Shown: positions 4,857 to 20,636 of the stretch, one piece after another
How positions within the stretch are numbered: the stretch's first letter is position 1
Layout of the letters: each line of letters opens with the position of its first letter
IMG/VR virus record: IMGVR_UViG_3300032931_000117
Span: 1 to 25,371 of that record
DNA from: a virus
Strand: one strand, 5' to 3'
Length of the DNA: 25,371 nt
Position numbers and translations under genes: made by a program
Notes under the pieces: generated by a model
The model's database searches: none
Told to the model about the DNA's origin: nothing
Seen by the model: only the letters and a program-made list of their open reading frames with translations

Positions 4857-7160
4857 ATGCCATTAGGATATAGTCAATTATTAGATTTGGTTGGAACTTT
4901 AACTGGTCCAACAGGACCTCAAGGAGAAACAGGTGCTCAAGGTGAAACTGGTCCTCAAGGTGTTCAAGGTGGTACAGGCCCACAAGGCTCCGATGGTATA
5001 TCAGTATCATATTACAGATATAATGCTAGAACAAATACACAATCACCACCACCTTCTAACTCACAGATTATTTGGAATGATGCTACACAAATAAACTCAA
5101 CTATAATATATGTTGACCACATTACAACTGATAATATAGATATAGATGTTTTTTTAGCATTGATTAAAACTGGTGATAATATAATTATTCAAGATGCAAA
5201 TGATTCTACTGCATATCAAAAATGGACTGTTAGTGGTACTGTAAGTCAAACATTAGTATATACAACTATACCAGTCACATATGTTGAAGGTGGACACCAA
5301 TATACAAATGGGGAAAATATAATCTTTATACCCCTATCTATTGGTATATCAGGACCACAAGGAGTTCAAGGATTTCAAGGCCCAACTGGTCCTAACCAAC
5401 CTATAACTTTATCTGGTGCTGTAACAGGTACTGGTTTAACAGCTATAACAACTACTTTATCTAATTCTGTTGTTGGTATAGCTAATCTATCAGCAACAGG
5501 CTCACCATCATCTGCTACTTATCTTAGAGGTGATAATACTTGGTTCACACCTGCAGGCTCTGGTGATATGATATTAGGAGCCACCCAAACAGTAACTGCT
5601 GCAAAGTTATTTAGCAATAATACATTACGATTAGCTAGACCAGATAATAATGCAACTAACTTTTATACAATCGTTGGTTCTAATATAACTGCTGCTAGAA
5701 CATTAACAGTACCACTAATAACAACATCAGATACCTTAGCTGTTTTAGGTATATCACAGACCTTTAGTGCAGCTCAAGGTTTTAGCTCAAGTCCAGCTTC
5801 TGCGCCAAGTGTATCAATTTCACCAACTACTGGTGGTGTAGCAAATCCACAATTATTTATTGGTGGGTCAGGGTCTCAATGGATAGGATTTCCTGCTTTA
5901 GCATCTAATGCTGGTTTAGGAGGACCAACAGCAGCAGCTAATGGAAGAGCAATTGGTTCTAAGTTGGTATTTGTACCATCACCAAACTTTTTTATAAACT
6001 CTGATACTGCTATTGGTGTTGAAACAGTAGCATCGAGAACTGCTTTATGGACGCAGGCACACGGAGTTATTAAATACTATCCAGATAGTACATTAAACTC
6101 AGTTGGACAATTTGAATCTGGTAGTAATGTTGTGGGATTAAACCTAAATGGAAACTCTACTTCAACAATACCCAACTTATTAGTATCAACTGGTTCTAAT
6201 AACTATCAATGGATAAGTTTTGGTGCTAATACACAAGTTGGAACTCCAAGTACAACAAGAAGTTTAGGAACTAAAATTGCTCTTTATGCATCACCAAATC
6301 TATTCACTGGCCTTGATGCTGCATTGGGATTAGATTCTGGAAATGCACTATGGTTGTCTAGTCCATCAAATGTTAGATTTTATCCTAATAGTAGCCAAGT
6401 TTCTAGTGGTCAATTTACTTATAATTTACTTACTAATGATGGAGTTAGAGGGTTACAACTAAACTCACCATCTGATGCGAATAATTTAGTATCTCAACTA
6501 CTTATTGCGGGCGCTGGTTCTCAAAGTTATACTTTATCATTTGGTTCAACTCCACAATTATCACAACCAACACCATTTACTGGGACAAGAACAGCTGGTA
6601 AGAAAATTGTATTACAAGAAACTACAAACACATTCATTAGTGTTGAATCAGCCATTGGTAGGGAAACTGGTTTTATGTGGTTTTGTGACCCGGGTGGGAT
6701 TAAGTTTTATACGAATAATGAATCAACTACAGCTAGGGCTCAAATTAATAGTAGTGGATTAACATTAAACACAACTCTTAACTTAAGAACTAACACAGCT
6801 GCTGCTGGCACTGCACCAATATACTTTAATACAACTAGTCCTGTTCTTCTTACGACACCTGTGAATGGTGCTATGGAATATGATAATACTGATTTATTTA
6901 TTACTGCTAATAGTACAAGACAAACTATATTAAAAGGTAGGTCAGGTAATTTTTCTACTACTGCTACTGCTAGTACAGCATTTGTTGTGACTTTTGGTGG
7001 AACACAACCTAATAGCACATATGAAGTTGCTATAACTCCAACTAATCTATTGAGTTGTGCTTTATTATACATCAGTGCTAAAACAACAACTACATTCACA
7101 GTTACATACTTATCTGGCTTAACAGGTACTGTAGCTTTTGATTGGATATTAACTCAATAA
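4857..7160 (+). CDS. Collagen-like tail fibre protein
   Basis: This is a 767-residue fibre. Two Gly-X-Y stretches (residues 15-47 and 164-179) flank a beta-rich domain at 48-163. Residues 183-310 carry a pattern common in tail fibres: an SGAVTGTG strand, NSVVGIANLSATG, then TYLRGDNTWFTPAGSGDM and a TQTVTAAKLFSNNTL strand. Residues 331-631 contain three degenerate repeats of about 85-90 residues. The end (about 697-767) is a small beta-sandwich-like domain rich in Thr, Val and Phe, a plausible receptor-binding tip. The protein is expected to be a trimer in the tail. It starts 15 bases after the other collagen-like gene and has an A-rich leader. The first 14 residues contain no strong attachment domain, so how it joins the virion is unclear. 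Confidence 0.8.
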   Translation: MPLGYSQLLDLVGTLTGPTGPQGETGAQGETGPQGVQGGTGPQGSDGISVSYYRYNARTNTQSPPPSNSQIIWNDATQINSTIIYVDHITTDNIDIDVFLALIKTGDNIIIQDANDSTAYQKWTVSGTVSQTLVYTTIPVTYVEGGHQYTNGENIIFIPLSIGISGPQGVQGFQGPTGPNQPITLSGAVTGTGLTAITTTLSNSVVGIANLSATGSPSSATYLRGDNTWFTPAGSGDMILGATQTVTAAKLFSNNTLRLARPDNNATNFYTIVGSNITAARTLTVPLITTSDTLAVLGISQTFSAAQGFSSSPASAPSVSISPTTGGVANPQLFIGGSGSQWIGFPALASNAGLGGPTAAANGRAIGSKLVFVPSPNFFINSDTAIGVETVASRTALWTQAHGVIKYYPDSTLNSVGQFESGSNVVGLNLNGNSTSTIPNLLVSTGSNNYQWISFGANTQVGTPSTTRSLGTKIALYASPNLFTGLDAALGLDSGNALWLSSPSNVRFYPNSSQVSSGQFTYNLLTNDGVRGLQLNSPSDANNLVSQLLIAGAGSQSYTLSFGSTPQLSQPTPFTGTRTAGKKIVLQETTNTFISVESAIGRETGFMWFCDPGGIKFYTNNESTTARAQINSSGLTLNTTLNLRTNTAAAGTAPIYFNTTSPVLLTTPVNGAMEYDNTDLFITANSTRQTILKGRSGNFSTTATASTAFVVTFGGTQPNSTYEVAITPTNLLSCALLYISAKTTTTFTVTYLSGLTGTVAFDWILTQ
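5847..6749 (+). repeat. Three degenerate ~85-90-residue protein repeats in the fibre
   Basis: Three units (5847-6116, 6171-6416, 6492-6749) share a pattern: a PQLFIGG/PNLLVST/SQLLIAG strand, a Ser/Tyr-Gln-Trp-Ile-type strand with Phe, a Gly-Thr-Lys-Ile/Leu-hydrophobic strand, an xNxF...D/E-A-Ala/Ile-Gly motif, a Trp-containing strand, then a (K/R)FYxN turn and Gln-Phe/Ile. Identity is only visible at protein level. Confidence 0.65.
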
Positions 7161-7177
7161 AATATAAATAAATAATA

Positions 7178-7525
7178 ATGATAAACATTTCAGACAACCC
7201 AAACTTTGACTTTAAAAGAAAAGTAGACAATGATGAGGTACTAATCGTAATAGATTGTAAGAACAAATATGTTATATTACAATTAGATGTATATAATTAC
7301 ACACAAGATGATATATTGATTACTGATATACCTATAAAATCTGTACCACTAACAGCAGACAACAATACCAAGGTAGATGCTAATGGAGTACCTACTGATG
7401 TAGTAGCTGACCAAGTAATGGGTGAATATGATTACTTTAAGATTATGATGGGTACTCCTGTTGTTATTAATGATATGATTGATGCAAAGATAGTATGGGC
7501 GGATAGTGTTGGTAGATTTAACTAA
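7178..7525 (+). CDS. Small beta-rich protein, probable virion component
   Basis: This is a 115-residue protein I do not recognise. It opens with NPNFDFKRKVDNDEVLIVIDCKNKYVILQLDVYNY, whose start is charged and then alternates hydrophobic residues, suggesting a beta-sandwich. It has no signal peptide, membrane segment or cysteine motif (one Cys only). It lies 17 bases after a collagen-like fibre gene and before a membrane peptide, all in the same direction, so it is probably co-expressed with the tail genes. A fibre chaperone or a minor structural subunit are both possible; nothing in the sequence decides. Confidence 0.6.
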   Translation: MINISDNPNFDFKRKVDNDEVLIVIDCKNKYVILQLDVYNYTQDDILITDIPIKSVPLTADNNTKVDANGVPTDVVADQVMGEYDYFKIMMGTPVVINDMIDAKIVWADSVGRFN

Positions 7526-7542
7526 AAAATAAAATAAAATAA

Positions 7543-7704
7543 ATGAAAAAAGTTTTAGGGATAGTTGTATTTATATTTGCTGTTTTTTTATTTGTAGTCC
7601 TTATTGAGAATTATGGCATTACTCATACTGATACTAAAGTTATACTTATAGATACTTGTATCAATGATACTGTTAAAATACCTATTGATAGTGTTATAAA
7701 ATAG
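7543..7704 (+). CDS. 53-residue single-pass membrane peptide
   Basis: The frame reads MKKVLGIVVFIFAVFLFVVL at its start, a Lys-Lys N-terminus followed by one hydrophobic helix (residues 4-21), then a polar tail of about 32 residues ending IPIDSVIK. It has an A-rich leader and starts 17 bases after the preceding gene, which supports expression. The tail has a single Cys (Cys39) that is not in a lipobox position. A one-helix peptide in a phage could be a pinholin, an antiholin, a spanin subunit or a superinfection-exclusion protein. The probable true holin is elsewhere (23700-24089), so an accessory membrane role is likely, but this is a guess. Confidence 0.6.
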   Translation: MKKVLGIVVFIFAVFLFVVLIENYGITHTDTKVILIDTCINDTVKIPIDSVIK

Positions 7705-7770
7705 TTTTTGGATTGTGGGGCACATCGGATTGTGTTATCTGAGTAAGTCCTTCAACCAAAAATTGGTGCA
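7705..7770 (+). ncRNA. Structured intergenic RNA candidate
   Basis: The gap between the membrane peptide and the gp10-like gene can form a 10-bp stem with one bulged A: 7705-7711 pairs with 7756-7762 and 7713-7715 with 7753-7755. Inside, CACA (7721-7724) can pair with TGTG at 7731-7734 or with TGTG at 7714-7717. The 3' strand of the main stem also takes part in a competing hairpin (7755-7759 with 7763-7767, loop AAA), so the two folds exclude each other. GC in 7705-7762 is about 40%, above the neighbours. There is no T-run after it. Identity is unknown: a cis-regulator, processing site or small RNA are all possible. Confidence 0.4.
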
Positions 7771-7790
7771 AAGTAAGAAACAGACGAATG

Positions 7791-7819
7791 ATATAATATA
7801 ATAATAATAATAATTAATA
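7791..7819 (+). promoter_or_regulatory. AT-only leader with ATA/TAA microsatellite
   Basis: An A/T-only stretch with (ATA)n/(TAA)n triplets and two overlapping TATAAT hexamers lies just before the ATG of the gp10-like gene. It could act as an unstructured ribosome entry region or contain a -10-like element. No matching -35 element at a normal distance is seen. Confidence 0.35.
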
Positions 7820-8299
7820 ATGGCTCAACAACTCGACACAACAAACCTTAGAAAACAACTTGAAATAATTGGAGTTGAAGCTATTGGTTTTATAACAAAA
7901 ATCTTGGTTGAGAATGATAAACAAGTCACAGGTAATCTAATCAAATCACTTGATTTTAAAATTATTAAAGATGTTGATACTTTATTTTTAACTATATTAG
8001 CAGCACCATATTTTAGTAATGTGGATAAGGGTAGAAAGCCAGGAAAGATGCCACCATCTGGACCTATTAAAAAATGGGTGGATAGAAGAGGTATTATTAT
8101 AAAAGGTCAAACTAGTGCTCAAACTGCTTTTGTTATAGCTAGGTCAATTGGTAGAAAGGGAATTAAACCACTAAATATAACCAATAAACTTATAGATAAT
8201 ATAATAAGAAATAAAGAAAGTATCATTAAAGCTGGTGCTGTTAAAGATATACAAGAATTGTTAGATAAATTGATTATTAACTTAAATAGCACTTTATAA
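7820..8299 (+). CDS. HK97 gp10-like head-tail joining protein
   Basis: This 159-residue protein fits the small neck/tail-completion proteins related to HK97 gp10. It has an N-terminal helix with a conserved basic/hydrophobic pattern (LVENDKQVTGNLIKSLDFKI, about 30-49), a beta strand YFSNVDKGRKPGKMPPSGPI (71-90) that is a hallmark of this group, then KKWVDRRGI and AFVIARSIGRKGIKP near residues 104-118, and a C-terminal amphipathic helix. These proteins act at the junction between connector and tail tube. Its position among tail fibre genes rather than next to the connector (23087-23695) is unusual. It follows the structured intergenic segment. Confidence 0.72.
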   Translation: MAQQLDTTNLRKQLEIIGVEAIGFITKILVENDKQVTGNLIKSLDFKIIKDVDTLFLTILAAPYFSNVDKGRKPGKMPPSGPIKKWVDRRGIIIKGQTSAQTAFVIARSIGRKGIKPLNITNKLIDNIIRNKESIIKAGAVKDIQELLDKLIINLNSTL

Positions 8300-8315
8300 A
8301 TAAAATATATAGAAT

Positions 8316-9977
8316 ATGGCATTAACAGCAGAAACGATTGTGTTGAGAGCACCAGATAAACTCAGCTCATTAAACGATATTTGGGGAAATACAATTGCAC
8401 TTGGTTTATCTACAAGTAATTCATCAATAATTGGTGTAGGTTCTAATAATTTTAGATACTTTACTCTATTAACAGCCTTTTTTAATAATGGTTTAACACA
8501 ACCAGAAATTAACTTAGGTGTTTTTCAGTACCCACCAAGACCAATTGATAATAGTGGATTTGTTGTTGGATATGGAGCATTTTCAGTATCTAATCCATTA
8601 AGAAGTTTTATATCAAATAGTTATCAAGGGTATAATACAGATTTACCAATTTTTTTATTTCCAATAAACACACCAAATTATTCATCACCATTAATTAAAT
8701 ACTCAGTGAATAGTGGATTTTCATACAATCCAAACTTATCGGTTACAGCTTTTCAGGCTGTAGTTGGTCCTAATAGTTTTTTAGGATTTTCTTTTAGTAC
8801 TGTTAGTCCTTTTGTTAATAATACAAATAATTCAGTTTATATAGTTACTGATAATACATTCGTACAGGGTGTCCACGCTTTATCCACAAGTGGTACAACA
8901 AATACAATAGTAACTACTACACCATTTACATCAAGTATGGCTTCTGCAACACCACTAGGTACAATAACAGAGTATAGTCAATCAGATGCTGATACAACAA
9001 ACATAACTGATTTATATGGCTTCAATGGTATAACACCATATGAATTATATCCACTCACCTATAATTGGTTAGTAGTCGATGGGAGTACAGGAAGCTACCC
9101 ACTTGATAATCCACCAACAACATTTAAGTTTTTATCAAATTACCCAAATAGAAGTCAGAAACTCTGTGCTGGAACTGCAAGTACTAGTTGCTTTAATTAT
9201 ACTAAAAAAACAAGGGTTGGGTATTATGAAACAATAGATTGTATATTTGATAGTCAATTACTTGTTAGTAATAATATAGCTGTAATTATTCGGTCATATG
9301 ATAAAAACTTTGCAATACTAGATAGTTTCGTCGAAAGCCTTAATGATGCATTTGGTCTTGCCGCAACTCCTGGTGATTTATATAAAGTTAGAATACCTGT
9401 TGGTTGGTTAAACAGATTAGCTTATTTTATCACACCATCTGCTGTTGATTACTTATCAGTTCATATTGTAATCAATCCAACAGCATCATCAACAATTATT
9501 ACTGAGGGTAGATACTATAAATATGATAGAGATTGTACTATTTATGACCCAGTTGAGTTTATGTTTTTGAATAAACTAGGTGGTTGGGATTATTGGACAT
9601 TTACACAGGATTCTAAAGAAACGCATTCTATAACTCGTAATGAATATAAAAAGGAAATAAATTGGGGTGAAACACAAAATGGCTCACTTGGTATTGGATT
9701 TAGAGGTAGAACAGTTATGAGTGGTAATGTCCAAAAAACATTTACAGCAAATACAAATTGGATTACCGAAACTGAATATGAGTTTTTATCTGAGTTAGTT
9801 GAAAGTCCAGAAGTTTATATTATGAAATACTACGCAACAAGTGGTAGTGCTTTTGACCCAGTAGCTGTTGTTATAACAGATACTTCATATGAAATAAAAA
9901 CAGCTGTTAGAGATAGTATATTTAATTTAACAATAAATTATAAAATGGCTGTTGATACGCCAATGCAAAGACAATAA
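8316..9977 (+). CDS. Distal tail structural protein
   Basis: This 553-residue protein has no named domain that I can assign with certainty. Residues 1-200 are Ser/Asn/Phe-rich and beta-prone. The middle has a Cys-containing stretch (LCAGTASTSCFNYTKK) and long beta strands. The C-terminal 130 residues (FLNKLGGWDYWTFTQDSKET, then INWGETQNGSLGIGFRG and a TANTNWITETEYEFLSELVE helix) match a recurrent module of Bacteroidota phage tail proteins encoded beside the tail-tip gene. It has no signal or membrane segment. It starts 16 bases after the gp10-like gene and ends 9 bases before the 1383-residue tail protein, so the two are probably made together and form the tail tip or baseplate hub. Function is inferred from position and general resemblance. 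Confidence 0.62.
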   Translation: MALTAETIVLRAPDKLSSLNDIWGNTIALGLSTSNSSIIGVGSNNFRYFTLLTAFFNNGLTQPEINLGVFQYPPRPIDNSGFVVGYGAFSVSNPLRSFISNSYQGYNTDLPIFLFPINTPNYSSPLIKYSVNSGFSYNPNLSVTAFQAVVGPNSFLGFSFSTVSPFVNNTNNSVYIVTDNTFVQGVHALSTSGTTNTIVTTTPFTSSMASATPLGTITEYSQSDADTTNITDLYGFNGITPYELYPLTYNWLVVDGSTGSYPLDNPPTTFKFLSNYPNRSQKLCAGTASTSCFNYTKKTRVGYYETIDCIFDSQLLVSNNIAVIIRSYDKNFAILDSFVESLNDAFGLAATPGDLYKVRIPVGWLNRLAYFITPSAVDYLSVHIVINPTASSTIITEGRYYKYDRDCTIYDPVEFMFLNKLGGWDYWTFTQDSKETHSITRNEYKKEINWGETQNGSLGIGFRGRTVMSGNVQKTFTANTNWITETEYEFLSELVESPEVYIMKYYATSGSAFDPVAVVITDTSYEIKTAVRDSIFNLTINYKMAVDTPMQRQ

Positions 9978-19952: not shown

Positions 19953-19970
19953 AAAAAAACTATTGATTAA

Positions 19971-20004
19971 GTGGGGGTTGAGATATACCCCCACAGGGTC
20001 AACC
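19971..20004 (+). other. Hairpin / possible H-type pseudoknot after the capsid gene
   Basis: GTGGGGG at 19971-19977 pairs perfectly with CCCCCAC at 19988-19994 around a 10-base loop. Loop bases TTGA (19978-19981) can also pair with TCAA (19999-20002), giving an H-type pseudoknot. The alternative GGTTGA (19976-19981) with TCAACC (19999-20004) is a 6-bp stem that competes with the first. No T-run follows, so it is not a standard intrinsic terminator; a role in mRNA 3' stability, processing or translation of the tail tube gene is possible. Confidence 0.6.
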
Positions 20005-20023
20005 AAAAACAAAAATAAAAAAT

Positions 20024-20563: not shown

Positions 20564-20586
20564 CACTTTTCATATCCAATTTGAAG

Positions 20587-20610
20587 AAGCCGCCTTTTAG
20601 GTGGTTTTTT
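20587..20610 (+). terminator. Intrinsic terminator after the tail tube gene
   Basis: CCGCC (20590-20594) pairs with GGTGG (20600-20604) around TTTTA, with one G-U pair, and the stem extends through AAG/TTT (G-U, A-T, A-T). The T-run 20605-20610 follows directly. It lies 24 bases after the stop codon and should end the capsid/tail tube transcript. Confidence 0.8.
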
Positions 20611-20636
20611 CATTTTAGGACCTGTATATATACTAT

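Follow-up and report, generated by a model that had tools for sequence, protein, structure and literature searches.

Locus and predicted fold

The window, the whole stretch of DNA analysed here, is a 25,371-base record of an uncultured virus. PHROG matches of its terminase, portal and tail-fibre genes indicate a tailed phage. Its host is likely a member of the Bacteroidota, since a tail-region protein described below finds its weak relatives in Cellulophaga, Tenacibaculum and Bacteroides phages. Within a tail block whose genes all share one reading direction, a gene for a 53-aa protein (7543..7704, + strand) is followed by a gene for this 159-aa tail-region protein (7820..8299, + strand; phrog_21534). 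The 53-aa protein has one N-terminal membrane-spanning stretch by eye, and no match for it was found in PHROG or among phage records. The 115 nt between the two genes (7705-7819) form the longest intergenic gap of the window, in agreement with the original prediction, which had called it the main non-coding gap inside the tail block. The G+C content of about 40% given at the same time holds for positions 7705-7770 (41%) and not for the gap as a whole (30%).

RNA read from the + strand of this gap is predicted to fold into one strong hairpin at 7702-7765. Its outer stem joins 7702-7711 and 7713-7715 to 7753-7765 around a bulged A7712, and is followed by a 5-bp middle stem (7717-7721/7747-7751) and a 6-bp inner stem (7725-7730/7737-7742) closed by the loop 7731-7736. 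The 10-bp stem originally described (7705-7711 and 7713-7715 with 7753-7762, A7712 bulged) is present both in the sequence and in the computed fold; the hairpin is longer than was stated, as three further pairs, T7702-G7765, A7703-T7764 and G7704-T7763, extend its base. These three positions are the TAG stop codon of the 53-aa gene (7702-7704), which thus lies within the base of the hairpin. Pair probabilities are mostly 0.94-1.0, with the outermost pairs at 0.68-0.97.

The stability of this fold was compared with dinucleotide-preserving shuffles (n=5000). The 7702-7767 fold reaches -24.9 kcal/mol (z -5.0), a stability equalled by 1 of the 5000 shuffles, and the originally proposed span of 7705-7770 reaches -21.7 kcal/mol (z -3.2; 26 of 5000). 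When every 66-nt stretch of either strand of the window is ranked by stability, the hairpin comes second; the first-ranked stretch is G+C-rich and lies inside a gene, which leaves the tail hairpin as the most stable non-coding fold of the window. From the z-scores, which by themselves are no proof of function, together with the shuffle counts and the stability rank, we conclude that base composition and chance do not account for the hairpin.

The original prediction went further and proposed mutually exclusive folds, a two-state design of the kind found in riboswitches, thermosensors or processing signals. The pairings it named do exist in the sequence: a competing 5-bp hairpin (7755-7759/7763-7767), the repeat GGATTGTG at 7710-7717 and 7727-7734, and a CACA between the two copies (7721-7724). 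Their energies are nevertheless far from the main fold. Alone, the competing hairpin amounts to -3.2 kcal/mol, against -21.7 kcal/mol for the 7705-7770 fold, and the best whole fold that contains it reaches -18.6 kcal/mol. Placing CACA on the second TGTG gives at best -17.4 kcal/mol and on the first -13.7 kcal/mol, so that the alternatives are less stable than the main fold (-24.9 kcal/mol) by 6.3-11.2 kcal/mol. CACA/TGTG pairings are predicted to appear briefly in prefix folds while the RNA is being synthesised and then to be replaced, and such transient pairings are common for any hairpin. Since the minimum fold is predicted to be identical from 5 to 45 °C, a thermosensor is disfavoured as well. 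The start codon at 7820 is also unsequestered, lying 54 nt past the stem in A/T-rich surroundings with little predicted pairing. The Rfam search suggested earlier returned nothing at gathering score (best sub-threshold E values 1.5-6). A two-state switch is rejected on the folding energies. In place of a riboswitch candidate the locus holds a plain, testable element: a real, strong, ordinary-looking intercistronic hairpin with a single predicted state. Of the functions first named, that of a processing signal is retained as a possibility.

Absence of the hairpin in a related phage

Three queries in viral contigs, one in genome contigs and one over 19 related records recovered a single relative that holds this gap, IMGVR_UViG_3300011337_000258 (L001/L003). 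It carries both flanking genes, with about 63-65% identity in the 53-aa protein (63% in the best segment, 65% over the alignment) and 86% identity in the 159-aa protein (best segment). Its gap measures 44 nt: the hairpin is missing, although the sequence to its left and right is preserved. The original prediction had expected related phages without this gap to speak against a structured RNA, and in the sole relative available the hairpin is indeed gone from conserved flanking DNA. The record L012 ends before the gap.

Pairwise alignment, completed by comparison by eye, places the difference at a segment of 72 nt (7701..7772) that comprises the hairpin and a few bases. The TATAAA at 7695-7700 and the GTAAGAA at 7773-7779 of the window are adjacent in L003 (3417-3429, TATAAAGTAAGAA), and beyond this junction the two phages are nearly identical, with 2 differences in 36 positions along AGTAAGAAnCAGACnAATGATATAATATAATAATAA (7772..7807, + strand), the best-conserved non-coding part of the gap, which runs into the start region of the next gene. 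AAA stands at both ends of the segment, and its limits are therefore ambiguous by up to 3 nt. With the block removed, both phages have identical last codons followed by a TAA stop. A block of about 72 nt would thus have been gained by the lineage of the window or lost by the other, two directions that one relative makes indistinguishable.

In more distant relatives the matching tail gene is not preceded by a comparable gap: the upstream gene overlaps it in Cellulophaga phage phi13:1 and Bacteroides phage SJC22, and in L017 a short A/T-rich spacer precedes it. No second copy of the hairpin was found in 667 kb of related DNA, and no real match occurred in the collections scanned. A loose search with the arm pattern matched 14 viral contigs, all unlike the hairpin outside the prescribed arms; they fold less stably and for the most part fall within open frames, which makes them chance-like. 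A mobile palindromic repeat of the REP or MITE kind would be multi-copy, and with one copy in 667 kb this identity was rejected. On present data the tail hairpin appears to be lineage-specific.

A conserved hairpin after the major capsid gene

The same comparison shows that the RNA structure conserved in this phage group lies elsewhere in the genome. Directly after the major capsid gene, the gap at 19953-20023 contains a two-tier hairpin at about 19963-20002, which has no U-run in the near relatives. A covariance model built from five near relatives found a match in L012 and weak matches in the post-capsid gap of L019 and L020, whose capsid proteins are only about 28-29% identical. Direct folding likewise gave a hairpin in this gap in all distant records (~28% identical capsids). 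In an alignment of seven distinct sequences, 98.9% of cells are paired and both partners have changed in 8 of 14 pairs, counts that lean towards the model because the alignment was fitted to it. None of 500 shuffles reaches these values, and slid controls are far lower. The post-capsid hairpin has no Rfam match.

The conserved RNA structure of the window is the post-capsid element and not the tail hairpin. The two have in common their genome, a two-tier form, the lack of a U-run and a position at a gene end, the tail hairpin at a stop codon and the post-capsid one just past its own, but compensatory changes that maintain the structure in relatives are seen for the latter. As a positive control, its recovery also indicates that the method detects kept structure in this phage group; the tail hairpin is missing from the single relative that holds its gap. 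Shared letters between the two (TCAACCAAAAA) had suggested kinship, an idea rejected when the covariance model of the post-capsid element produced no credible hit at 7702-7765. Further along, positions 20564-20636 hold a hairpin with a U-run, GCCGCCTTTTAGGTGGTTTTTT, an ordinary intrinsic terminator that is also found in L003, L005 and L006.

Possible roles of the tail hairpin

The likeliest role of the tail hairpin is an ordinary one, the protection or processing of RNA. In its full form, this reading holds that a single stable intercistronic hairpin, if active at all, would act post-transcriptionally in the protection or processing of mRNA in the manner of malE-malF; we regard it as roughly an even call. 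In Escherichia coli, protected operon segments have their 3' ends marked by stable hairpins that lack a uridine tract; such a structure immediately precedes the end of 26 of the 34 5' operon segments found to be stabilised, and malE-malF is a described case of an intercistronic mRNA-protecting hairpin (PMC5927463). The tail hairpin resembles this type in being highly stable, in lacking a U-run after its stem, which also leaves it without a terminator match, and in standing right at a stop codon, a cistron boundary inside a polycistronic block read in one direction. It differs in that it belongs to another host group and is not conserved in the one relative that holds this gap. Phage T7 early mRNA, with its intergenic hairpins processed by RNase III, offers a second parallel: the tail hairpin is likewise irregular, about 60 nt long and situated between phage genes.

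If active, the hairpin would work post-transcriptionally, either as a barrier to 3'-5' exonucleases that would shield the transcript upstream of it, as in the malE-malF type, or as a substrate that a double-strand RNase would cut. With the stop codon placed at the foot of the stem, a ribosome that terminates there would hold the outer pairs apart, and we infer that the full hairpin would form only between ribosomes. The covarying hairpin after the capsid gene lends support to protection or processing by suggesting that cistron-end hairpins occur in this phage group, as does the clean absence of the block in L003. On the other hand, that absence also means that the structure is not needed in the sole relative, the tail hairpin is unrelated in sequence to the one conserved after the capsid gene, and a strong hairpin could be the passive by-product of an inserted inverted repeat.

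A serious rival, to which we give real though lesser weight, is that the hairpin has no function, being a neutral hairpin-forming block of DNA that was inserted here, or deleted in the relative via slippage at the AAA repeats, at a site tolerant of any sequence. The ends of the indel fall within a few nucleotides of the hairpin ends, with AAA on both sides and flanks kept, and related phages and the scanned collections yielded no other copy, only the chance-like arm-pattern matches. Against neutrality, a far weaker fold would be expected from composition, and it is unusual for a random insert to consist of a single closed hairpin.

A more elaborate version of the protecting or processing role, in which a stop-codon-embedded hairpin, recently acquired as a discrete 72-nt block, would couple translation termination of the 53-aa gene to the way the tail mRNA is processed or protected, seems unlikely to us. 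Still less probable is that the hairpin terminates transcription, fully or in part, ahead of the 159-aa gene. A strong stem directly at a stop codon would suit one, but the stem is followed by GTGCAAAG with no U-run, a terminator scan of 7100-8400 found no intrinsic terminator, and the ordinary U-run terminator of this phage sits elsewhere, after 20563.

We consider it very improbable that the block is a coding remnant or that it extends the 53-aa gene by read-through, frameshift or bypass. An open frame of 33 codons (7700-7801) does span the hairpin, and the TAG within the stem is reminiscent of phage T4 gene 60. Codon usage in this frame, however, is -0.56 bits per codon, like out-of-frame sequence and below the true genes (about 0 to +0.47), and L003 has a stop at the matching place. 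No tRNA or tRNA remnant was found. The slimmest chance of all falls to the two-state regulatory RNA first proposed (riboswitch, thermosensor or attenuator), since its alternative pairings, real in sequence and predicted as short-lived during synthesis, are energetically inferior to one fold that is predicted unchanged from 5 to 45 °C, has no Rfam counterpart, leaves the start site free and is absent from L003.

Two further observations concern the surroundings of the hairpin. Immediately ahead of the 53-aa gene the window and L003 carry genes with no relation to each other (7178-7525 in the window, 2993-3256 in L003), which places a mosaic boundary at about 7540, beside the tail-fibre module. 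Downstream, the A/T-rich leader of the 159-aa gene (7772-7819), which includes AGTAAGAAnCAGACnAATGATATAATATAATAATAA, is conserved at the DNA level against L003 to a degree that exceeds the neighbouring genes, and it is perhaps a start-region or promoter signal.
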